Below, one piece after another: positions 9,454-22,044 of a stretch of 56,561 nucleotides of DNA. A program made the position numbers and the translations under genes. The notes under the pieces were generated by a model. The model had not been told where the DNA came from and did no database searches. It saw only the letters and a program-made list of their open reading frames with translations. The stretch's first letter is position 1. Every line of letters begins with the position of its first letter. This DNA comes from Betaproteobacteria bacterium (GTDB lineage Bacteria > Verrucomicrobiota > Verrucomicrobiia > Methylacidiphilales > UBA1321), in NCBI GenBank assembly GCA_903970275.1, contig CAJCIA010000034.1, forward strand, positions 1-56,561, written 5' to 3'.

Positions 9454-9852
9454 ATGATCATCAGCCGCGTTGGTTCAAAGCCTTCCAACAAGGGACCCGC
9501 CGATTGGTTCACTGGCGCGGTTCGGATCGATCCACTTTTTCAGACGGACGCGCCGGCGCGTGTGGCGGGCGCAAGCGTCACCTTCGAGCCCGGAGCCCGC
9601 ACCGCGTGGCACACGCACCCGCTGGGCCAGACACTGGTCGTCTTGAGCGGCTGCGGCCGCGTGCAGCGTGAAGGCGGCTCCATCGAGGAGATTCGTCCGG
9701 GCGATGTGGTCTGGTTTCCGCCAGGCGAGAAACATTGGCACGGCGCCTCGCCTACGACCGCGATGAGCCATCTGGCGATACAGGAGCAACTGGACGGAAA
9801 GGTGGTCGACTGGATGGAGCACGTGACCGACAAGCAGTATCTCGGTGCATGA
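9454..9852 (+). CDS. Small cupin-domain protein ((R)-mandelonitrile lyase / ChrR-like cupin)
   Basis: A 132-residue single-domain cupin. Motif 1 gives metal ligands H53 and H55 in [10 protein letters not shown] plus Q59; motif 2 is [10 protein letters not shown] with H94/H96. The N-terminus [20 protein letters not shown] and the C-terminal [14 protein letters not shown] are typical of the small manganese cupins that include plant-type (R)-hydroxynitrile lyases of soil bacteria. Most relatives are uncharacterised and are better called cupin-domain proteins. It is probably cytoplasmic and binds a divalent metal. It stands alone, downstream of the structured element and 68 bases before a glycosyltransferase cluster, to which it may or may not belong. 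Confidence 0.88.
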
Positions 9853-9920: not shown

Positions 9921-11048
9921 ATGCGCATCTTGCTCTGGACCGACGCCTACTATCCGGAAATTGGCGGCCTCGAAGTTTTCTGCCTGCAGTTGGCGCGCGG
10001 ATTGGTGAAGCTCGGCCACGAAGTCGAAGTGATCACCGGCCGAAGCGGCGCCATCTCGCCACAAATGAGCCTGCACGACGGCATCCCCGTACACGGTTTT
10101 GGCTTCAGCCATGCCTTGATCAATCAAGATTTAGCCGCGCTGCGCGTTCAAAACCAGGCCTGCGCCGCGGTACTCGACCGGTTCGATCCGGACCTTATTC
10201 ATGTCAACGTGGTCAACGTCGGCATCTTTAATTTTGTGCTTCAGCAACGGCGGCGGCGGCGGCCGACTGTCCTCACCGTGCACGACACCGTCTTCTTTGT
10301 GAACAAGGCAGGCCTCGCCGGACAGGCGCTCACCTTGATCGATGGCGTGATCGCCATTTCCAACTACGTCTCGTCCGTAATAGTCGCCGCGCACCCGGAG
10401 ATTGCCGGCCGCACGCGCACGATTCTAAACGCGCTGCCGATGCCCGAAAGCTTCTCAATGCCTCCGAAGAGTGACCAGAGCATCCTGGCTTTTGGCCGGA
10501 TCGCGAAGGAGAAAGGATTTGATCTCGCAATCCAGGCCTTTGCCCAGATCGCACGCCGCTTTCCCGAGGCCACGCTGACCATCGCCGGGGATGGCGTCGA
10601 GCGCGCGAACCTACAGGCTCTTGCCCAGTCCACCGGCTTGGCGGATCGGATCCACTTTCCCGGCTGGATTCACCCCGATGCCATGAACGACGTCATCTCG
10701 CGCCACGCCTTCGTTGTCATGCCGCCCCGCTGGCAGGAGCCTTTTGGATTGGTGGCCTTGCAGACGGCCCAGTGTGGCCGCGCCATTGTTGCCACGCACA
10801 GCGGGGCTATTCCGGAGATCGTGGTCGATGGAGTCACGGGCCGGATCGTGCCGATCAACGACACCGGCGCGCTCGCGCAGGGGATGGAGGAGCTCCTGTC
10901 GCAACCGAAGCTCGGGCACACGTGGGGCCAGGCCGCACGGGTCCGCGCCCGGGAGCAGTTCTCTTTCGACGTTTTTCTCCAGCAGTATGAGGAGACCTTT
11001 CTACACTGTGCCGTGGTGGACCGGAATCGTGCGGCGAGCCCTGCCTAG
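9921..11048 (+). CDS. Glycosyltransferase family 4
   Basis: A 375-residue GT-B glycosyltransferase. The N-terminal domain has the GG loop (PEIGGLEVFCLQLARGLVKL) and LTVHDTVFFVNKAG. The C-terminal nucleotide-sugar domain has SILAFGRIAKEKGFDLAIQA, TIAGDGVERANL and WQEPFGLVALQTAQCGRAIV. In the usual EX7E signature the second Glu is Gln here (EPFGLVALQ), while the first Glu is kept. No membrane helix is obvious. It opens a compact five-gene cluster and would transfer a sugar to a lipid-linked, peptide or polysaccharide acceptor that cannot be identified from sequence. Confidence 0.88.
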   Translation: MRILLWTDAYYPEIGGLEVFCLQLARGLVKLGHEVEVITGRSGAISPQMSLHDGIPVHGFGFSHALINQDLAALRVQNQACAAVLDRFDPDLIHVNVVNVGIFNFVLQQRRRRRPTVLTVHDTVFFVNKAGLAGQALTLIDGVIAISNYVSSVIVAAHPEIAGRTRTILNALPMPESFSMPPKSDQSILAFGRIAKEKGFDLAIQAFAQIARRFPEATLTIAGDGVERANLQALAQSTGLADRIHFPGWIHPDAMNDVISRHAFVVMPPRWQEPFGLVALQTAQCGRAIVATHSGAIPEIVVDGVTGRIVPINDTGALAQGMEELLSQPKLGHTWGQAARVRAREQFSFDVFLQQYEETFLHCAVVDRNRAASPA

Positions 11049-11102
11049 TTTGCTTTCCAAACATTCACTTTTGCATCCACACCGGAGCCCTAAGATCGTT
11101 CC

Positions 11103-11510
11103 ATGCCTGACGAGTTTTATATCATCCCGGCGGACAAGGTGGCCCACGAGTTGATGGAGGAAGAGGTCATTGTCATTCACTTTGCTTCCGGCTGCTATTT
11201 TAGCCTGCACAAAGCGGCGGCGTTGATCTGGCAATGGATCGGCGCGGGCGCCAGCCACTCGCAGATCGTCGCATCTTTTACCTCGCTCTCCCCGGCTCAG
11301 GAGCGCGAAGTGGATGCCTTCCTCGATCAACTGGTGGCGGAAGGCATTGTGGAAAAGAGCGATCAGCCGGCTGCGGGTAGCTTTTCCATCGTGCAGGTGC
11401 CGTACGAAAAGCCGGTCCTGGAAATCTACAAGGACATGCAAGATCTCATGCTGGTTGATCCCATCCACGAGGTTGACGCCACGGGCTGGCCGAAGCCGCT
11501 GGCCGAGTGA
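11103..11510 (+). CDS. PqqD-family protein (RiPP recognition element)
   Basis: A 135-residue protein of the PqqD fold, a winged-helix domain that binds leader peptides of ribosomal peptides for a partner enzyme. Visible features are MEEEVIVIHFASGCYFSLHKAAALIWQWI, a helical middle with A-SHSQIVASF, then the last helix LDQLVAEGIVE. A 45-residue tail after that (VQVPYEKPVLEIYKDMQDLM and beyond) is longer than in PqqD itself (about 90 residues). It is followed four bases later by an HprK-like kinase. In known lasso-peptide clusters this domain (B1) works with a protease B2 and a cyclase C; neither is present here. Confidence 0.85.
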   Translation: MPDEFYIIPADKVAHELMEEEVIVIHFASGCYFSLHKAAALIWQWIGAGASHSQIVASFTSLSPAQEREVDAFLDQLVAEGIVEKSDQPAAGSFSIVQVPYEKPVLEIYKDMQDLMLVDPIHEVDATGWPKPLAE

Positions 11511-11514
11511 TCAC

Positions 11515-12627
11515 GTGACCCAGCCCGCTTCCCTTCCCGCCAGCCCGACCCGGATCGGCGGCTATTTGCCGGCCGCTTATTTCGGAGAGATGGAGGAAGC
11601 CTTCCGCCGCGCGGAGAAAAATGCGGGTTCCGCGCGCGACGTCTTCCTCGATTTCGACGGCTTGATTCTTCGCCTGCACTGGATCGGCGACTCGCTCCCC
11701 GCCCAGTTACTTCCGACTCTTGCGCATCTGCAGGTCCCGGATCAGCCGGCGGCCGATTACACCATCTGCTGCTGGGACGATCAGGCCACGGGTTCGGTCC
11801 TGCCACCGCCGACCGAGTGGATGATGCACGGAGCCCAGCGTTCCATCCTGCCCATCCTGACCAACGAACGCTTCCAGACCTTCTACGTTGGCTGGCTCCC
11901 CTCCATCTCGGCCATCGATCTAGAATCGCGGACGGCGTACTGCTGCTACGTCAATGCCTCGAGCCTGCTGATGTACGAGGTGTCGGGTCCCTTGCGTGGA
12001 ATCCTCAACGCCATCCTCAACCGGCGCGGCATGCAGATCACCCACGCCTCTGCGGTGGGCAACGCCAAGGGCAGTCTGATCTTCGCCGGCGCGCCCTTTT
12101 CCGGGAAGTCGACGCTTTCCGTACTGGCCTTGCAGGATGGGCTCAACTATCAGGCGGACGATCTCTGTGTGGTCACCGAAGAGCCGCAGCCCCGTTCACT
12201 TTGTCTCTACAATATCGCCAAGGTGCGGCAGGACATGCGGCCCGCGTTTCCAGAACTCGATCCCGTTTTTCAGACCGTGCAGGAGGAGGGCGAAAGCAAG
12301 AGCTTCTTCTACGTTCACCAGCAGGCTCCGGAGCGGCTGATGAAAAGCGCGCCGATCCGGGCGGTCATCCTGCCTCGCATTGTGGACGCGGAAACCAGCC
12401 ACCTCGAGCCAGCCGCGCTGATCGACACCGTCCGGGCCCTCGTCTCCTATACCGTCAGCGAGATTCCCATGGCACCCGGTCGCGGCGAGCAGATTCTCAT
12501 TCGCGCCTTGGGACGGTTGCCCGCCTGGCATCTGCATGTCGGCCGCGACAATCGCCAGACGCTGCGGCTGATTCGCAGTCTTCTGGATGGCGATGATCGA
12601 AACCACCCGGCAACTTCCCACGTCTAA
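11515..12627 (+). CDS. HPr kinase-like protein (HprK-related P-loop kinase)
   Basis: About 370 residues from the GTG at 11515, four bases after the PqqD-like stop; the open frame runs further up but there it is antisense-like. The C-terminal half has the HprK-type core: HASAVGN, the P-loop GAPFSGKST (192-200, Lys198), and YQADDLCVV, a Walker-B-like Asp pair. The N-terminal half (about 1-170) is not recognised and does not resemble HPr kinase. Relatives beside PqqD-like proteins in lasso clusters phosphorylate a Ser on the peptide; others sit in polysaccharide clusters with unknown substrates. No HPr or PTS gene is here, so carbon-catabolite control is unlikely. Confidence 0.8.
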   Translation: MTQPASLPASPTRIGGYLPAAYFGEMEEAFRRAEKNAGSARDVFLDFDGLILRLHWIGDSLPAQLLPTLAHLQVPDQPAADYTICCWDDQATGSVLPPPTEWMMHGAQRSILPILTNERFQTFYVGWLPSISAIDLESRTAYCCYVNASSLLMYEVSGPLRGILNAILNRRGMQITHASAVGNAKGSLIFAGAPFSGKSTLSVLALQDGLNYQADDLCVVTEEPQPRSLCLYNIAKVRQDMRPAFPELDPVFQTVQEEGESKSFFYVHQQAPERLMKSAPIRAVILPRIVDAETSHLEPAALIDTVRALVSYTVSEIPMAPGRGEQILIRALGRLPAWHLHVGRDNRQTLRLIRSLLDGDDRNHPATSHV

Positions 12628-12644
12628 TTCGCGGAACCTCTGCC

Positions 12645-13331
12645 GTGTCCACCATGCTTCGCGTTTCCGTCGTCATTCCCGCGTTCAACCGTGAGGCCTA
12701 TCTCGCAGAAGCGATTGAAAGTGCGCAGAGCCAGCTTGCTCCCGGCGACGAGATCATCGTCATTGATGACGGATCAATCGACCATACCCGCGATGTGGCG
12801 AATCAGTTTCCCCGGGCGCTATGCGTCTCGCAGGCCAACGCCGGCATCGCTGCCGCACGAAACGCCGGCATCGAATTGGCGCAAGGCGAACTGATTGCCT
12901 TTCTCGACAGCGACGATCTTTGGTTGCCGGGGAAGCTCGCGCGGCAACGGCAGGTTCTCGAGGAACAGCCGGAAATCGATTTGGTGTTTTGCCTGGTCGA
13001 AGCGTTCTGGAGCCCAGAACTCGACCAAGACGCTGCCATTTCCTTTGACACGGAAACGCGCCCGGGATTTCTTCCCTCCTGCCTGCTCGCACGGCGCGAT
13101 GCATTCCGCCGGGTCGGAAAATTCGATCCGTCACTGCGTGCCGGGGAATTCATCGCCTGGTATGGACGCGCCCGGGAAGTGGGCCTCCGCCACAGCATGA
13201 TCCCCGAGTTGCTCGTCCATCGCCGCGTGCACCGGGGCAACAGCGTTCATGACCGGGCCAGCCTTGAGCAAAGTTACCTCTCGCTAATCCGTTCCCAGCT
13301 CGCCCGTCGCCGCGCCGGCCTGACACCCTGA
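12645..13331 (+). CDS. Glycosyltransferase family 2
   Basis: A 228-residue GT-A glycosyltransferase. Typical motifs in order: VSVVIPAFNREAYLAEAIES at the nucleotide site, EIIVIDDGSIDHT, ANAGIAAARNAGIELAQG, and the metal-binding FLDSDDLWLPGKL. It starts at GTG 12645 or, equally well, at ATG 12654. At 228 residues it is shorter than most GT2 proteins (about 280-320) and has no membrane helix, so it is a compact soluble form. Eighteen bases separate it from the kinase gene, and one base from the nucleotidyltransferase gene that follows, so it is translationally linked to the cluster. Confidence 0.9.
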   Translation: MSTMLRVSVVIPAFNREAYLAEAIESAQSQLAPGDEIIVIDDGSIDHTRDVANQFPRALCVSQANAGIAAARNAGIELAQGELIAFLDSDDLWLPGKLARQRQVLEEQPEIDLVFCLVEAFWSPELDQDAAISFDTETRPGFLPSCLLARRDAFRRVGKFDPSLRAGEFIAWYGRAREVGLRHSMIPELLVHRRVHRGNSVHDRASLEQSYLSLIRSQLARRRAGLTP

Positions 13332-13332
13332 T

Positions 13333-14901
13333 ATGTTTCGACGACGCTTCTGGCCGGATCGCAACCAACTCCTGCTCCTGCAGGTCTGCTTGCTGACCGA
13401 CAAGGAAGCGGCGCGTTCCGCGTGGAAGGAATGGTCCGGGCGCGTGAATCTTGACGATCTCGATCCCTCGTCGTTCCGCATCATGAGCCTGGTCTATCGA
13501 CGGCTCGTAGAGCTGGGAATCAACAGTCCCGACCTGGCGCGAATCAAGGGAATCTACCGCTATCACTGGACGCGAAATCAAGTGGCGTGGCGCGGCAAGG
13601 CGGATCTGCTTCGGGCGCTGCAAGGCAAAGGCATCGAGGTGCTGCTGCTCAAGGGTGCGGCGCTCGGCCCTACCGTTTACCCGGAACCAACCGCGCGCGG
13701 CATGCACGATCTTGATTTCCTCGTGCCGACGGCCGATGCAGCGCGCGCCGTGGGATTGCTGCGCGAGCGCGGCTGGATTGAGCAGCACTTCGACGTCCTG
13801 AACACGATTCAGTATTTTCACGGCTGCTCCTTCCTCCATCCCGATTTCGGCGAGGCCGATCTGCACTGGCACGTCATGCGTTCCCATTGCGACGCCGACC
13901 GCGACGCCGAGCTGTGGGCGGCAGCGCGGCCTTTTTCGTACGCGGGACTAAATGCAAAGATGCTTTGTCCGGCCGATCAATTCCTGCACGCCTGCGAGCA
14001 TGGTCAGCACCACTCGCTCGCCTCGGCGCTCCAGTGGCTGGTGGATGCCACGCTCATTCTTCTGCATGATCCGGCGACCTTCGACTGGCCCCGGCTGATC
14101 GATCAGGCGCGCAAATTTCGGCTCGTCCTTTGCGTCCGGCAGACGCTTCGCTACGTGCAACGCCACTTCAATATCGCCGTGCCGGAAGAGGTGACGCGCG
14201 AGCTGGCGCTCAGCCCTGTCCCCTGGCTCGAGCGGCTTGAGCTCGTTCTGGCCAACCGCCCCAGCACCCTGCAGCACGGGCTGGTTCGCCGGGTGGCGCT
14301 GGCCGCCTGCCACCATCTGAAGGCCGCGCCTCATCTTAGCTGGCACAAAGCGATGACAAGTTTTTCGCTCTACTATCGACTAATCACGCACGAACGGCGC
14401 GAGTGGGCCGTGGTCTATAGCGACTGGAAACTCACCATGGCGCGTCGCCTGATGGATGGGGCTGCTGGCATCGCGTTCCGTGCCTGGACCCTGGTCCGAC
14501 GGGGATCGTGGCCGCGTGGCGGGCTGATTACACGCCTGCCAGCCGATGCGCTCACCGGCTTTCATCGGGTCGAGACAGAGCGAGGCAGCTTGTTTCGCTG
14601 GAGCCAGCCGGAAGCTTCGCTGCGGCTGACTCTTCCTCCATCGCACAAAACGATCCGCCTCGGCCTGCGTCCGTTTCGGGACCTTGCACTCCTGCAGGAA
14701 GATGGGCTTCAGTTCGCGCTGGATGGCCAGACGCTGCCTGCGACCCAGGTTGTCCGGAACGGGGATTTCCTCACGATCCGTCCCGATCCACAGCAACTCG
14801 CCGTCCATGAACCGCACACTTTGAGCTGGAAGGTTGCCGCATGGCCGGCGGACGATCCGCGCGAGTTGGGCTTGCCGGTATCGCGGATCTGGACGTTCTA
14901 G
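13333..14901 (+). CDS. NTP_transf_5-family nucleotidyltransferase with extra C-terminal beta module
   Basis: A 522-residue protein whose first about 330 residues belong to the nucleotidyltransferase family seen beside lasso-peptide and polysaccharide genes: LLLKGAALGPTVYPEPTARG, then MHDLDFLVPTADAA with the catalytic Asp pair, and the helical LHWHVMRSHCDADRD and LCPADQFLHACEHGQHHSLA. From about 415 a separate module follows (SLFRWSQPEASLRLTLPPSH and a tail with DPRELGLPVSRI). That tail motif recurs at the ends of many glycosyltransferases and is probably carbohydrate-binding; this likeness is from memory. The substrate is unknown. It closes the five-gene cluster and is convergent with the sugar-porter gene, one base away. 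Confidence 0.8.
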   Translation: MFRRRFWPDRNQLLLLQVCLLTDKEAARSAWKEWSGRVNLDDLDPSSFRIMSLVYRRLVELGINSPDLARIKGIYRYHWTRNQVAWRGKADLLRALQGKGIEVLLLKGAALGPTVYPEPTARGMHDLDFLVPTADAARAVGLLRERGWIEQHFDVLNTIQYFHGCSFLHPDFGEADLHWHVMRSHCDADRDAELWAAARPFSYAGLNAKMLCPADQFLHACEHGQHHSLASALQWLVDATLILLHDPATFDWPRLIDQARKFRLVLCVRQTLRYVQRHFNIAVPEEVTRELALSPVPWLERLELVLANRPSTLQHGLVRRVALAACHHLKAAPHLSWHKAMTSFSLYYRLITHERREWAVVYSDWKLTMARRLMDGAAGIAFRAWTLVRRGSWPRGGLITRLPADALTGFHRVETERGSLFRWSQPEASLRLTLPPSHKTIRLGLRPFRDLALLQEDGLQFALDGQTLPATQVVRNGDFLTIRPDPQQLAVHEPHTLSWKVAAWPADDPRELGLPVSRIWTF

Positions 14902-16359: not shown

Positions 16360-19300
16360 TTACTTCACGCTCGTCAGCTGGAGGATTCCCTGAAGTGGCA
16401 CGCTCAGCCACGCGGGGCGGTTGTTCAATTCGTAGCCCAGCTCGTAAAGAGCCTTGTTCATCAGCGTCGCGTCTAGAAGCACGTGAAGCTCCTCGTTCGT
16501 CTTGGGCAGGAAATCTCCCGTCCGCGCCGATTCCAGGTAAGCCTTCAGGAAGATGAGGCTGGCCCAGTAAGTCCAGAATCGGGCCCACGGCTCGATCCAG
16601 GTCATTGTCTCCGGAGTAATAATCCCGCGTTCCGCCTGCGCGGTCAGGGCGATGCGCGCCACATAGTCGAAGGACCGCAACATGCCGGCGACGTCGGTAA
16701 CCGGCGAGCGCTTGAAGCGACGCTCACCCAGTGAGCGCGCCGGCTCGCCTTCAAAATCAATGATCAGGAAATCTTTCCCCGTATGCAGGACCTGTCCAAG
16801 GTGGTAATCGCCATGAATGCGGGTGCGCATGCCGGTCAGCCGCACATCCGCGACGGCACGGAGCCGTTTCACAATGTCGGGCTGGAGTGCGATCACCTTC
16901 TCCGCGTCGGACCGCGCGGCCTCTGGGACCATCTTCATCTTGCTGCGAAGCAGACCCAGGTTTTGCACGGCCAGGTTACGCATGGATTGGAAAAGCGACC
17001 GCTGATAGAAGGGATTAAACGGCTCGGGGGCGAAGTCCTTGCTGTCGCGGTCGCTCGCCAGGCAGAGATGAAGTGCGGCGGTGCGCTCGCCCAGCAGTCG
17101 CGCCGCTTCGGCATACGTGCCAAGTCGCTCGGTGACCAAAACGGGGATTTCCTGAGGCAGCGCGGCCAGAAGCGAGCCCTCGATCCTCGGCGGGACTCGC
17201 TGCTCATCGGCGAGGGATCCGATGCGTTGGTAATAGCGGCTCAGGCTATCCAAGGTGAATTCGGAGCCGTCTCGACAATTGGCGGCGAAGCCACTGAGGA
17301 TGCCGAGGCTGGTTTCCTGTCCGTCGCGCGCCCGATAGACCAAACCTCCGGCCAAGGGAGGCGCGAAAGGGAATTCATGCTTCGCGAGAAACCGGTTGAT
17401 TTCGACATCCGGATTCACACCAGCTTCCAAACGGCGAAACGTCTTGAGGATGAATTTGTCGCCGAAGTGAATGGCGGAGTTGCTTTGCTCGGCCTTGCCC
17501 ACGTGCGGGTCCGTGTTTTCCGCACCGTCCCCCTGCAGCTGACGCAACGCATCGAGCGAAAAGCCGCGCAATTCGCCGTCGACACCCTTCAAGGCGCGCC
17601 GACGGCTCATGGTGTCGAGGAGCGTGAGCGCCAGATCGCGGTTGCCGATGCCGTCATAGATGACGCCTTCAACACCACTCTTTTTCAGACGCAGCCGCGA
17701 GATGACTAAGTGGGGCCGCTCGAGTTGAAGCTTGGCGGCCTCCTCCGCGGAGGCGAAGGCAAGTGGCAGCAGGTAACGCTCCGGATCGCCCTGCACATAA
17801 TCGAGATCAACGAAGAGGAGAAAAGACAGGCCGTCCGTGGACGGAACTGTGATCCTCTCGCCTACGTGCACGCTTTTCAGGACATGGGTCTTGCCGCCAA
17901 ACCAGCGGCGCGGCGGGATGTAATCCAGCAACTGCGTCTCGAGTTCCCGCACGCTCTGGTCTTCCAGCAACTCCTGCCAATCCTGCTCCACCTCGAGCAG
18001 CGGCCACTCGGGCGTCTTGGCGGGAGTGGCCGCAGGAGCGGCACCCGCCTCCGCCGGTCGGGTTTCCAGCGAAAACCAGTAGAAGGCGTGCGGCCCGATC
18101 GTCAGCCGATAGGGCTGATCGGAGATGGCGGGAAAGACATTCCGGCTGAAGATCTCCACCGGCACCATCTGCTGAAAGGCAGTCAGGTTTAGCTCCACCA
18201 TTTCCACGAAGCGGGAGAGATTACAGACCACCAGGACGCATTGCTCACCCTCGCGGCGCAGGAAGGCTAGAATGCGCCGGTTCTCCGGCTGCAGGAACTC
18301 GATGGACCCGGTACCGAAGACCGGCCAGCGCTTGCGCATGGCGAGCAGCCGCTTGGTCCACCAAAGCAGGGAGTCGGAATTCCGCTGCTGATTCTCCACG
18401 TTGATCGCCTCGTAGTGATATTCCGGATCGAGGATGATGGGGAGAAATAGGCTCTGCGGATTCGCCCGGGAAAAACCGGCGTTCTTATCCGAGCTCCATT
18501 GCATTGGCGTGCGCACGCCGTTGCGGTCGCCAAGAAAGACGTTGTCGCCCATGCCGATCTCGTCGCCGTAATAAAGCACCGGCGTGCCGGGCATGGAGAG
18601 CAGCAGGGCATTGAGTAACTCGATGCGTCGCCGGTCATTGCCGAGCAGCGGCGCCAGCCGGCGCCGGATGCCCAGGTTGATGCGTGCGCGCGAATCCTGC
18701 GCGTAGACGCGGTACATGTAGTCGCGCTCCTCATCCGTTACCATCTCGAGCGTCAGCTCGTCGTGGTTGCGCAGGAAGATCGCCCACTGGCTTGTGTCAG
18801 GGATGGTCGGCGTCTGTTGAAGAATGTCGACGATGGGCGTCCGATCCTCCATGCGCACCGACATGAAAAGCCGCGGCATGAGCGGAAAGTGAAACGCCAC
18901 GTGGCATTCGTCGCCCTTGCCCTGACCGAAGTAAGCCGCTGCGTCCTCCGGCCATTGGTTCGCCTCCGCAAGGAGCATGCGGTCGCCGTACTTCACGTCA
19001 ACGTGCGCGCGCAGCTTCTTCAGGAACTTGTGCGTCTCGTCGAGATTTTCGCAGTTGGTGCCTTCGCGCTCGTAGAGGTACGGCACTGCGTCGAGCCGCA
19101 GCCCGTCCACGCCCATATCGAGCCAGAAATCGAGGACCTTGAAGAGTTCCGTGTGGACCTCCGGGTTTTCGAAATTCAGGTCGGGCTGGTGCGAGTAAAA
19201 GCGGTGCCAGTAATTCGATTGTGCGACCGCGTCCCAGCTCCAGTTTGAGAGTTCGAAATCCTTGAAGATGATGCGCGCGTCCTTGTACTTCTCCTGGTTG

Positions 19301-19728
19301 TCGCTCCACACATAGAAATCGCGCCACTTGGTGCCCGGCTTGGCGCGGCGCGAGCGCTGAAACCAATCGTGCTGGTCAGACGTGTGGTTGATGACGAGCT
19401 CCGTGATCACGCGCAGCCCGCGCAGATGCGCCTCGTTCAGAAATTCCTTGAAATCCGACAGCTCGCCATACATCGGATTGACGTCCGTGTAGTCGGCGAT
19501 GTCGTAGCCATCGTCCCGCAGCGGTGATGGATAAAACGGCAGCAGCCAAAGCGCCGTGACGCCCAGGTCCTGCAGGTAATCCAGCTTCGAGGTCAGTCCG
19601 CGGAAGTCGCCGATGCCGTTCGCATCCGAGTCGCAAAACGAGCGGACGTGCGCCTGGTAAATGACGGCCTTTTTGTACCACATGGGGTCTTTCGTCCCGT
19701 TCCCGGCCGTGCTTTTCTGCTGTGCCAT
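16360..19728 (-). CDS. treS: Trehalose synthase fused to maltokinase (TreS-Mak)
   Basis: A 1122-residue fusion. The N-terminal GH13 part (about 1-550) interconverts trehalose and maltose: WYKKAVIYQAHVRSF, DGYDIADYTDVNPMYGELSD, nucleophile Asp in GVDGLRLDAVPYLYE, acid Glu in LLAEANQWPEDAAAYF, and FLRNHDELTLEM. The C-terminal part (about 600-1122) is a maltokinase making maltose-1-phosphate from ATP: IHGDYHLGQVLHT near 970 and IIDFEGEPARSLGERR. ATG 19728 is chosen because MAQQKS precedes the family start and an AAGGAG overlapping the glgE stop serves it; the frame is open 34 codons further up. With glgE just upstream this supplies the donor for alpha-glucan synthesis. Confidence 0.95.
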   Translation of the reverse strand: MAQQKSTAGNGTKDPMWYKKAVIYQAHVRSFCDSDANGIGDFRGLTSKLDYLQDLGVTALWLLPFYPSPLRDDGYDIADYTDVNPMYGELSDFKEFLNEAHLRGLRVITELVINHTSDQHDWFQRSRRAKPGTKWRDFYVWSDNQEKYKDARIIFKDFELSNWSWDAVAQSNYWHRFYSHQPDLNFENPEVHTELFKVLDFWLDMGVDGLRLDAVPYLYEREGTNCENLDETHKFLKKLRAHVDVKYGDRMLLAEANQWPEDAAAYFGQGKGDECHVAFHFPLMPRLFMSVRMEDRTPIVDILQQTPTIPDTSQWAIFLRNHDELTLEMVTDEERDYMYRVYAQDSRARINLGIRRRLAPLLGNDRRRIELLNALLLSMPGTPVLYYGDEIGMGDNVFLGDRNGVRTPMQWSSDKNAGFSRANPQSLFLPIILDPEYHYEAINVENQQRNSDSLLWWTKRLLAMRKRWPVFGTGSIEFLQPENRRILAFLRREGEQCVLVVCNLSRFVEMVELNLTAFQQMVPVEIFSRNVFPAISDQPYRLTIGPHAFYWFSLETRPAEAGAAPAATPAKTPEWPLLEVEQDWQELLEDQSVRELETQLLDYIPPRRWFGGKTHVLKSVHVGERITVPSTDGLSFLLFVDLDYVQGDPERYLLPLAFASAEEAAKLQLERPHLVISRLRLKKSGVEGVIYDGIGNRDLALTLLDTMSRRRALKGVDGELRGFSLDALRQLQGDGAENTDPHVGKAEQSNSAIHFGDKFILKTFRRLEAGVNPDVEINRFLAKHEFPFAPPLAGGLVYRARDGQETSLGILSGFAANCRDGSEFTLDSLSRYYQRIGSLADEQRVPPRIEGSLLAALPQEIPVLVTERLGTYAEAARLLGERTAALHLCLASDRDSKDFAPEPFNPFYQRSLFQSMRNLAVQNLGLLRSKMKMVPEAARSDAEKVIALQPDIVKRLRAVADVRLTGMRTRIHGDYHLGQVLHTGKDFLIIDFEGEPARSLGERRFKRSPVTDVAGMLRSFDYVARIALTAQAERGIITPETMTWIEPWARFWTYWASLIFLKAYLESARTGDFLPKTNEELHVLLDATLMNKALYELGYELNNRPAWLSVPLQGILQLTSVK

Positions 19729-19742
19729 TTTCCTATTCTCCT

Positions 19743-21776
19743 TCAGGGCGTAAGTGGATTGACGTGGAAGACGTGGGCGGAAGCTCCGGCAAAGGGATTC
19801 AGCTCCACGTAATTGTGGCTGCCATGCCACAGGTATTTCGCGTCCGTCAAAAGATCATGCACCTCGTACTCGGTGCCGGGCTCGATCGCGAGCGCGTCCA
19901 GATCCAACTCGATCCAGCCGCTCTGCACGCGATGCGGATCAAGGTTGACCACCACCAGCATGATGTCGCCGCCATCATCGGTCGCCTTGCTATAGGCCAG
20001 CAACGCATCGCTGTCGGTCGGGTGGAAATGGAGATTGTGCAGGTAATGCAGCGCGGGATGAGCACGGCGGATTCCGTTAATCGCCGTCACCAGGCTGGAC
20101 AAATTGTCCGGGCTGCTCAGGTCCCAATCTCGAATCTCGTATTTCTCGGAGTCCAGATACTCCTCGCTGCCGGGTTCGCGCGGCTTGCTCTCCATTAGCT
20201 CGAACGCGGGGCCGTAGATGCCGTAACTCGCGCCAAGCGTCGCGGCCAAAATGAGTCGAATGACGAAGGCCGGCCGGCCGCCTTCCTGAAGAAAATCAGT
20301 GAGGATGTCCGGGGTATTGGGCCACAGGTTTGGCCGAAAATATTCGATCAGCGGGGCCTCCGAGAGCTCCGTCAGATACTCGGTGAGTTCCTCCTTGTTG
20401 TTGCGCCAAGGAAAGTAATTGTACGACTGGTTAAAGCCGAGCTTCGATAGCCCCTCCATCACCCGGGGGCGCGTAAAGGCCTCCGCCAGGAAAATGACAT
20501 CCGGCCGCGCCAATCGAATTCCGCCGATGGCCCACTCCCAAAAAGGAAAGGCCTTGGTGTGTGGATTATCGACGCGGAAGACGCGCACGCCCTGATCGAC
20601 CCAATACTGGATCACGCTCCGCAGCTCCTGCCACAGGCCCTGCCAATCGTCCGTCTCGAAATTGATCGGGTAGATATCCTGGTATTTTTTCGGCGGGTTT
20701 TCCGCGTATTGGATGGTGCCGTCCGGACGATGCCTGAACCAGGACGGGTGTTCCCGCACCCACGGATGATCCGGCGAGCACTGCCAGGCGATGTCCAAAG
20801 CGATCTCGACGCCCAGGTTCCGCGCCGTATCTACCATCCTGTGGAAATCCTCCAGCGTCCCAAGTTCCGGATGGATCGACTTGTGGCCGCCCTCCTCCGC
20901 GCCGATGCCCCACGGGCTGCCGGGCTCGTCAGGTTCGCAGACCGGCTTGTTGTTTTTGCCTTTGCGAAAGGCGCGCCCGATCGGATGAATCGGCGGCAGG
21001 TACAGGACATCGAACCCCATTCCCGCGACGTGCGGCAGATGAGCCTCCACATCGCGGAACGTCCCGTGCGGCCCGGTCTTGCCCGGGCACGAGCGCGGAA
21101 AAAGTTCATACCACGCTCCGGTCTGCGCCAGCACCGGATCAACCGCGACCTGCAGTTCCCGAGCATATTCGGTCGAGTGCGCGCGCTGCGGATACTTCAT
21201 GGTCAACGCGGCCATCTCCTCATCGAGCGCCAGGTGAGCACGGTCTTCCAGCGTATCGCGGTCCCCCGCACTGAACTCCTTAGCCCAATGGCGCAGCTGC
21301 TCCGCTTCCACCTCCGGCGCCCGCTGCGCCGCGGCTTCGACCAGCTCCGCACCAATGAGCAGATCGACCGTGACATCCTGATCCGCGTGCACGCGCTTCA
21401 CCAAGTCCGTGCGCCACGACTTGTAGTGATCAATCCAGCCTTCCACGGTGTATTGATAGATCCCCAGCTCCGACACGCTGAACTCGCCTCGCCAGCGATC
21501 GTTGCCGATCGGCTCCATCGGCGTCTCGCACCAGCCCGTCTCCGCGGAGAATCGATATTTGAGGACGGCTGATAGTTGATCGTGACCGTCGGCAAAGATA
21601 TCGGCCTCGACTAAGACGCGTTCCCCCGGCACTCGCTTGACCGGAAATCGGCCCGCATCAATCTCGGGGGTTACTGCCTCGATCATCACGCGACGCTTGC
21701 CGTCGCCGACAATCTGCCCTGCGGTGGAGGGATCGGGTGGCAGCGCGCCTGCGCTCATCGGCTGATTAAAATCCAT
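19743..21776 (-). CDS. glgE: Alpha-1,4-glucan:maltose-1-phosphate maltosyltransferase
   Basis: A GH13_3 enzyme of 677 residues from ATG 21776 (ATG 21758 is also possible) that adds maltose from maltose-1-phosphate to alpha-1,4-glucans in the cytoplasm. In order: an N-terminal beta domain (about 30-120), a helical domain, then the catalytic barrel with GFDVLYLPPIHPIGRAFRKG, nucleophile Asp in FRVDNPHTKAFPFWEW (about residue 403) and acid/base Glu in FLAEAFTRPRVM (about 432). The C-terminal beta sandwich ends HVFHVNPLTP. It is the first gene of glgE-treS/mak-sugar porter. The branching enzyme GlgB, normally the last step, is not in the window. Confidence 0.95.
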   Translation of the reverse strand: MDFNQPMSAGALPPDPSTAGQIVGDGKRRVMIEAVTPEIDAGRFPVKRVPGERVLVEADIFADGHDQLSAVLKYRFSAETGWCETPMEPIGNDRWRGEFSVSELGIYQYTVEGWIDHYKSWRTDLVKRVHADQDVTVDLLIGAELVEAAAQRAPEVEAEQLRHWAKEFSAGDRDTLEDRAHLALDEEMAALTMKYPQRAHSTEYARELQVAVDPVLAQTGAWYELFPRSCPGKTGPHGTFRDVEAHLPHVAGMGFDVLYLPPIHPIGRAFRKGKNNKPVCEPDEPGSPWGIGAEEGGHKSIHPELGTLEDFHRMVDTARNLGVEIALDIAWQCSPDHPWVREHPSWFRHRPDGTIQYAENPPKKYQDIYPINFETDDWQGLWQELRSVIQYWVDQGVRVFRVDNPHTKAFPFWEWAIGGIRLARPDVIFLAEAFTRPRVMEGLSKLGFNQSYNYFPWRNNKEELTEYLTELSEAPLIEYFRPNLWPNTPDILTDFLQEGGRPAFVIRLILAATLGASYGIYGPAFELMESKPREPGSEEYLDSEKYEIRDWDLSSPDNLSSLVTAINGIRRAHPALHYLHNLHFHPTDSDALLAYSKATDDGGDIMLVVVNLDPHRVQSGWIELDLDALAIEPGTEYEVHDLLTDAKYLWHGSHNYVELNPFAGASAHVFHVNPLTP

Positions 21777-22044
21777 GTGGTACTTTGGTCGGACTCTTTT
21801 CCAGGACAATCTCGAAGGCCTTGTCTTCGCCGACATCCCTCTGAGGCCGCAATCTAACTCGCTGCCCGGGCGGTAGCTCCCCTATTGCAACCTCGGGGCG
21901 CGTCCTGCCGTCGTGAGTGATCGATCAATTTCCACACTGCCGCGTCGCAATCACCTTTCCATTGCGTTGCCTTTGGTCTAATCGAACTACAAGGGACCGA
22001 AGCGCAATCATCCTCACAAGCGCGGCGGTTCAAGCCATCTTTCT

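Follow-up and report, generated by a model that had tools for sequence, protein, structure and literature searches.

A five-gene cluster encodes a PqqD-family protein with a conserved C-terminal tail

The window analyzed here is the whole of contig CAJCIA010000034.1 (56,561 nucleotides; GenBank assembly GCA_903970275.1), deposited under the name Betaproteobacteria bacterium and assigned to the Verrucomicrobiota by GTDB. The contig belongs to a draft genome of 271 contigs that is 87% complete and is probably a metagenome-assembled genome (MAG). We examined five plus-strand genes at positions 9921–14901, which a first-pass annotation had described as a compact, precursor-less cluster in the style of those for ribosomally synthesized and post-translationally modified peptides (RiPPs). 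In order, the genes encode a GT4-family glycosyltransferase (9921–11048; 375 amino acids), a PqqD-family protein (11103–11510; 135 amino acids), an HprK-like kinase (11515–12627; 370 amino acids), a GT2-family glycosyltransferase (12645–13331; 228 amino acids) and an NTP_transf_5 nucleotidyltransferase-like protein, NTP5 (13333–14901; 522 amino acids). All five genes were confirmed as real and correctly placed. Pfam agrees with the earlier family calls for the GT4 protein (Glycos_transf_1, E = 2.3e-35; Glyco_transf_4, E = 3e-17), the PqqD protein (PF05402, E = 1.1e-7, 32.5 bits, cut-off 23.4), the GT2 protein (Glycos_transf_2, E = 3.7e-31) and NTP5 (PF14907, E = 3.7e-40, 138.5 bits against 31.2). 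The genes are separated by 54, 4, 17 and 1 bases, leaving no room for an intergenic precursor gene, as had been noted.

The PqqD protein begins with a winged-helix RiPP recognition element (RRE; residues 5–82, 11115–11348) with the predicted pocket residues E69, F73, L77 and I82. It ends with a conserved leader-like tail (11400–11507) that was overlooked in the first-pass annotation; the last 36 residues of the protein are PYEKPVLEIYKDMQDLMLVDPIHEVDATGWPKPLAE. Judged by its sequence, the first part of this tail is a leader motif of the type seen in lasso peptides and linear polyphosphorylated peptides (LPP), YEKPVL, leading into the strand LEIY (residues 101–109, 11403–11429). Beyond it lies a distal conserved motif, DMQDLMLVDPIHEVDATGWP (residues 111–130, 11433–11492), which is modelled as flexible. 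The tail consensus across relatives is [F/Y]xxPxLxxYxDMQ(D/E)LLLxDPIH(D/E)V..GWP. The description of the cluster as precursor-less is thus not supported, since a leader-type motif is built into the PqqD protein.

Tail-bearing PqqD proteins are found in many phyla

We scanned 84,980 genomes with a degenerate nucleotide pattern encoding Dx[QE]xL[L/M/I]LxDPIH, in which the second-position x was limited to VYG codons. The scan returned at least 114 stretches, one of which (L074) was rejected because it matched by chance in an unrelated reading frame, leaving at least 113 family loci. Counts over these loci, and over the sets of 28, 116 and 118 loci used below, are counts among the matches listed in a sample of at least this size; most of the loci lie on MAG fragments no longer than 8 kb, and the sample was gathered with the tail pattern itself. 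The tail forms the C-terminal end of an RRE-bearing open reading frame (ORF) in 112 of the 113 loci, and no free-standing tail was found among them. The remaining locus (L108) was rejected as a separate tail peptide because its contig ends 14 codons upstream. Tail-bearing loci come from at least 24 named phyla, besides some unranked records, and hosts in culture include Verrucomicrobium, Oscillatoria, Novosphingobium, Chamaesiphon and Methylovulum. The genome that contains the window has a single tail-like sequence and a single RRE above cut-off.

Within the distal motif the D and the DPIH are invariant and L reaches about 98%, values that are partly imposed by the search pattern and for that reason were not counted as evidence alone. 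Instead, we relied on columns outside the pattern and on loci found with the kinase. In the numbering of the window protein, the conserved columns outside the pattern are an aromatic residue at 101, P104 (~90%), Y/F109 (98%), V124 (90%), G128 (94%), W129 (96%) and P130 (87%), and an aromatic-xxP is present in 87 of 100 relatives. A query with the kinase only recovered nine full-length relatives in the phylum, the window copy included, every one of which adjoins a tail-bearing PqqD gene; the distal motif is recognizable at all nine of these loci, found without a tail query. More distant HprK matches have no tail-bearing PqqD neighbour. A relative of the kinase was missing from all 7 same-genus genomes searched, indicating that the cluster is patchily distributed.

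Three single records are of note. The cluster is present in a record labelled as a Klebsiella pneumoniae MAG (L034), an organism name that may be wrong. A Bacillota MAG carries a second PqqD-family protein, which lacks the tail, near the tail-bearing one (L033, 6513–7094, minus strand). Additionally, one plasmid copy of the gene was found, annotated merely as "PqqD family protein".

The tail is predicted to occupy the leader groove of the RRE

A profile of the PqqD family finds lasso RREs as its best structural matches: TbiB1 (5v1u, E = 1e-18), PbaB1 (9x90), TfuB1 (6jx3) and LppB (9x8z). The protein was modelled as a monomer with AlphaFold2 without templates, and the predicted confidence (pLDDT) is about 96 over residues 1–110, including a strand at 106–109, and 58–67 beyond. 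The Leu of PxL is the first residue of the modelled strand; in the crystal of PbaB1 with its leader, the RRE sheet is continued by the residues that follow this Leu (PMC13381572). The top Foldseek matches of the model are the RRE–leader complexes of TbiB1 and TfuB1. Additionally, the pocket residues F73, L77 and I82 have a spacing (F/+4/+9) that matches F74-M78-L83 of LppB and F83-L87-L92 of PbaB1. The protein is therefore an RRE, a winged-helix fold with a leader pocket, by PF05402, Foldseek and pocket spacing alike, and its model, which might have lacked a peptide groove, is consistent with a leader groove that is occupied.

Covariation points to the same contact. Residue 101 is chiefly Tyr or Phe. 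Tyr101 occurs with an acidic residue at position 69 in 24 of 27 sequences, and of the 57 sequences with Phe101, 44 have a non-acidic residue 69 (Fisher p = 9e-9). Of the 86 RRE positions tested against residue 101, the runner-up reaches p = 0.011, and the 69/101 covariation persists when redundant sequences are filtered out at 45% identity. Pairs joined by disjoint paths on the best tree agree for positions 69 and 101 in 13.5 cases and disagree in 0, and ten other positions give no such signal. This tree is weakly supported and has only 3 usable pairs on well-supported branches; because these are too few, pairs on all branches were also used. Mutual-information peaks with G92 and P2 were dismissed as gap artefacts. 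By alignment, residue 69 corresponds to D70 of LppB and Q79 of PbaB1. The side chain of LppB D70 hydrogen-bonds Tyr-16 in the YxxP motif of LppA, and PbaB1 Q79 binds the leader Trp (PMC13381572).

Recognition of a [Y/W]xxPx[L/V/I/F/A] leader by this RRE is indicated computationally by the motif in cis, the strand modelled as docked and the covariation. Together there is good evidence, from modelling and covariation, that the tail is the leader which this RRE would bind, either in cis or swapped between two copies. We hold the anatomy of the fused tail, together with its occupancy of the groove, to be very probably correct.

The kinase and nucleotidyltransferase retain their catalytic residues

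The earlier call of an HPr-kinase-like P-loop protein is upheld at the family level. Queried alone, the window kinase has no Pfam match at E = 0.001; Hpr_kinase_C is matched by 23 of 53 aligned relatives. The best solved structures for a profile of the kinase family are HprK 1jb1 and 2qmh, and the fold resembles PEPCK and HprK. The best start of the gene is the GTG at 11515, and the P-loop GAPFSGKST is encoded at 12088–12114. H177, G197, K198, D215 and D216 are invariant across the 53 relatives, so that the protein has both the P-loop and the catalytic His-Lys-Asp-Asp set of HprK-like kinases. Similarly, K107, G108, R122, D126 and D128 are nearly invariant in NTP5, which keeps the acidic dyad of its KG...DxD motif. 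Elsewhere, the same genome encodes a canonical C-terminal domain of an HPr kinase (205 bits; G000:C209, 16356–16859, minus strand), indicating that the cluster kinase is not that genome's HprK.

The gene set recurs across relatives

Among 28 of the matches listed with at least 3 kb on each side, an HprK-like gene is present at 23, GT2 at 23, NTP5 at 18 and GT4 at 10. The gene immediately downstream of PqqD, at 116 of the matches listed, is HprK at 60, GT2 at 22 and NTP5 at 14. The PqqD and HprK genes overlap by a median of 4 bases, which fits translational coupling of the two. The proposal that this is a stand-alone module is supported, as the gene set recurs widely outside complete lasso clusters and with neither a lasso precursor nor a B2 protease adjacent. 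A 20-member neighbour family, mostly of 535–620 amino acids, has an MsbA-type ATP-binding cassette (ABC) exporter as its annotated representative and no member in the window cluster; in a wider Pfam scan, ABC domains were matched by 8 of 113 neighbours. Further neighbours include sugar-nucleotide dehydratases and epimerases, GT8 proteins, methyltransferases and sulfotransferases. The 25 commonest Pfam families of the 113 neighbours, a list that leaves out some singleton families, contain no leader peptidase and no macrolactam synthase.

At two gut-type (Gastranaerophilales-type) loci (L030, 7033–7998, minus strand; L134, 1357–2844, plus strand), the kinase is fused to a second, divergent, tail-less RRE, and a separate tail-bearing RRE is adjacent. 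This arrangement is consistent with a split between enzyme and substrate roles. In an Acidimicrobiales MAG (L036, 6122–7846, plus strand), a gene called as a type I phosphodiesterase/nucleotide pyrophosphatase adjoins the tail-bearing PqqD gene, with overlapping reading frames.

In the window, cupin and TonB-system genes lie upstream of the cluster. The cupin gene (9454–9852, plus strand) is directly 5' of the GT4 gene and scores 208 bits against an NCBIfam cut-off of 140 with an (R)-mandelonitrile lyase model. Downstream, on the opposite strand, are genes for a major facilitator superfamily (MFS) sugar transporter, TreS/maltokinase and GlgE. Here a TreS-maltokinase fusion and a GlgE-like gene, of the alpha-glucan pathway, lie near the MFS transporter gene (16360–21836, minus strand). 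A defence system was considered and set aside, PADLOC giving no match.

No separate precursor or B2 protease was found with the cluster

The first-pass annotation had raised the prospect of a precursor encoded elsewhere. Small ORFs with [YW]xxPx[LVIF] near 118 of the matches listed show no enrichment (1 of 485 on the same strand and 14 of 502 on the other). With this result and the single copy of the tail in the window's own genome, a precursor acting in trans was rejected. The reported lack of a B2 protease is borne out at the genome scale, as PF13471 (B2 lasso peptidase) is nowhere above cut-off in the 87%-complete genome. No asparagine-synthetase-like macrolactam synthase is found among the annotated window genes around the cluster, the scope of that check, as no genome-wide PF00733 search was made.

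Of 20 tail-bearing genomes, 5 have PF13471 above cut-off. One of these, Oscillatoria sp. PCC 10802, was examined: it has a tail cluster and, on the opposite strand at a distance of about 9.6–10 kb, a divergent lasso-type cluster (L160, 2–4565) that is separate from it and to which the PF13471 match belongs. The lasso-type cluster encodes two precursors of 47–50 amino acids (YKKPTLTPYGSIQNITQ...), a tail-less RRE of 107 amino acids, B2 matches from the PF13471 search, an HprK-like protein and a 488-amino-acid protein that appears cyclase-like from its N terminus. The separate precursors have a related leader, YKKPTLTPYGSIQNIT, and aligned by eye the Oscillatoria leader reads PTLTPYGSIQNIT against PKLDKYTDMEDLL in the fused tail. 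From this comparison of sequences we infer that the fused tail comprises a leader, to LL or LLL, and a conserved core-like stretch, DPIHEVDETGWP.

Possible roles of the fused tail

We propose that the PqqD protein is an RRE with its own leader-type recognition sequence fused at the C terminus. The [F/Y]xxPxL part would rest in the leader groove of the same molecule or of a second copy, and this docking would project the flexible conserved segment DMQ(D/E)LLLxDPIH(D/E)V..GWP. In the mechanism that we prefer, the projected segment would be a built-in substrate: the RRE would present it to the translationally coupled HprK-like kinase, NTP5 and the glycosyltransferases, which would attach phosphate and sugar to the tail, and the product would, in some relatives, be exported through an MsbA-type transporter. 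This proposal draws on the retained catalytic residues and on precedent. In the LPP (PMC13381572) and paeninodin/pseudomycoidin (PMC9266682) pathways, kinases of this type place phosphate on a Ser in the precursor peptide, and PsmN, an NTP-transferase homologue, is required for addition of hexose to the phosphorylated Ser (PMC9266682). Modification of the tail, with its chemistry, order of steps and product, is what we infer by analogy with these pathways, and the cluster may accordingly be read as a phosphorylating and glycosylating system with its leader built in. The earlier suggestion that the set modifies a protein carrying a leader-like segment is supported in spirit, the segment being found on the PqqD protein itself.

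Several observations weigh against this proposal. The AlphaFold2 model is a monomer, and its alignment was enriched in tails by the search pattern. The distal tail has no conserved Ser or Thr, and 18 of 116 tails among the matches listed lack both from DMQ onward; self-phosphorylation on Ser/Thr in the manner of LPP was therefore rejected as a general rule. Because the characterized HprK-like peptide kinases use Ser, phosphorylation here would need another acceptor or another substrate. RiPP core peptides are also seldom so conserved, the commonest families of the 113 neighbours include no recognized leader peptidase, and loci without the kinase or NTP5 exist, as seen from the 23 and 18 occurrences at the 28 well-flanked loci. 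In our estimation the proposal as a whole, a fused leader in the groove with the distal tail as substrate, is evenly poised between right and wrong, and the substrate role of the distal tail taken by itself falls slightly short of that. In its most specific form, a natural RRE–precursor fusion in about two dozen or more phyla would be both recognition element and substrate, with a near-invariant core phosphorylated at an unusual acceptor and glycosylated to yield a carrier- or cofactor-like conjugate. We regard this version as tentative.

The lack of a conserved Ser or Thr leads either to such an unusual acceptor or to a tail that is a docking handle for enzymes whose substrate lies elsewhere. 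As a permanent activator or handle, the fused leader would lock the RRE in its leader-bound state, and DMQ...GWP would recruit the kinase, NTP5 and glycosyltransferases to act on a glycan, a lipid or an unlinked protein, with the PqqD protein as scaffold. A distal motif so nearly invariant speaks for a constant molecular partner or product rather than a variable antibiotic, and such constancy across phyla suits a protein–protein interface better than a natural-product core. LPP leader residues past the RRE contact are thought to touch the modifying enzymes (PMC13381572), and sugar-nucleotide epimerases/dehydratases, GT8 proteins, sulfotransferases and MsbA-like ABC transporters are encoded near tail-bearing genes. 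However, no common trans substrate gene was recognized, and the kinase of the Gastranaerophilales type has its own fused RRE, which would make a scaffold RRE partly redundant. On balance we think a purely docking role somewhat unlikely.

A conventional LPP- or lasso-like RRE pathway with an unlinked precursor, in which the fused leader would be an autoinhibitory gate displaced by the real precursor, appears improbable. RRE, kinase, NTP transferase and MsbA-like pump are the LPP core set, LPP precursors carry a YxxPxV motif (PMC13381572), and Oscillatoria has its lasso precursors with a related leader about 10 kb from the tail cluster. However, that lasso cluster comes with a tail-less B1 of its own, small ORFs resembling precursors are not enriched near the 118 loci, and the window's genome has one RRE above cut-off, one tail-like sequence and B2 never above cut-off; conservation of the distal motif would also want another cause. 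Even less probable is an ordinary surface-polysaccharide locus with PqqD and HprK as incidental passengers. Two glycosyltransferases in the window and the many GT2 and GT4 genes in relatives would suit such a locus, but PqqD and HprK are adjacent and coupled in many phyla, which already disfavours their being passengers, and the genes next to the window cluster include none for polysaccharide assembly, so that the neighbours do not make up a polysaccharide locus of known chemistry.

Comparison with known systems

The nearest known system, the LPP pathway (Popov et al. 2026, PMC13381572), is alike in its discrete RRE, HprK-like kinase, NTP transferase, MsbA-like pump, GT-rich loci, lack of a lasso cyclase, [Y/W]xxPx[L/V] recognition and use of the same pocket residues. 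From this core set, RRE, kinase and NTP transferase are present in the window cluster, and the pump gene family is found only in relatives. LPP precursors are encoded by genes of their own and carry a Ser that is modified; the pathway also has a SipW-like leader peptidase and is restricted to Bacillota. In contrast, the leader here is fused to the RRE, no Ser is fixed, the phyla are many, no SipW-like peptidase was recognized among the commonest neighbour families, and no separate precursor was found.

The tailoring of paeninodin and pseudomycoidin (PadeK, ThcoK, PsmN; PMC9266682) likewise combines a His-Lys-Asp-Asp HprK-like kinase, an NTP-transferase homologue and a B1-type RRE. In the window cluster, by contrast, no B2 protease, macrolactam synthase or separate precursor is seen, and the Ser acceptor is not conserved; two marks of a lasso cluster, the PF13471 peptidase and a precursor gene of its own, are thus both lacking. 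HPr-rel-A (TIGR04352 kinase, TIGR04353 PqqD) and the SynChlorMet cassette (ScmC, ScmD) also pair a kinase with a PqqD protein, with weak profile matches across the family. The window kinase scores 20–23 bits, and 20.6 bits in the TIGR04352 comparison, against a cut-off of 200, the window PqqD protein is unlisted for TIGR04353, and few of the family's PqqD proteins match the latter model. The window cluster differs further from both in having no radical SAM enzymes.

In a 2025 survey of RREs, 21% of PF05402 proteins were above the size of a discrete RRE without another annotated domain (PMC12710340). Tail-bearing PqqD proteins fit that oversize description. No description of the tail or of this fusion was found among the papers searched, and the built-in leader arrangement is apparently undescribed. 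The accepted role of RREs is to catch a precursor peptide that is a separate molecule; one with a covalent leader in its own groove would mean that the recognition step can be hard-wired and, if true, would account for the precursor-less look of such clusters in genome mining. Parallels for the fusion are borosin precursors, which are fused to their methyltransferase, and engineered leader–enzyme fusions, in which a leader or precursor is held covalently on the protein that handles it. Unlike in borosins, the fusion partner here is a discrete RRE rather than a catalytic enzyme, and the enzymes encoded with it comprise a kinase, an NTP transferase and glycosyltransferases.

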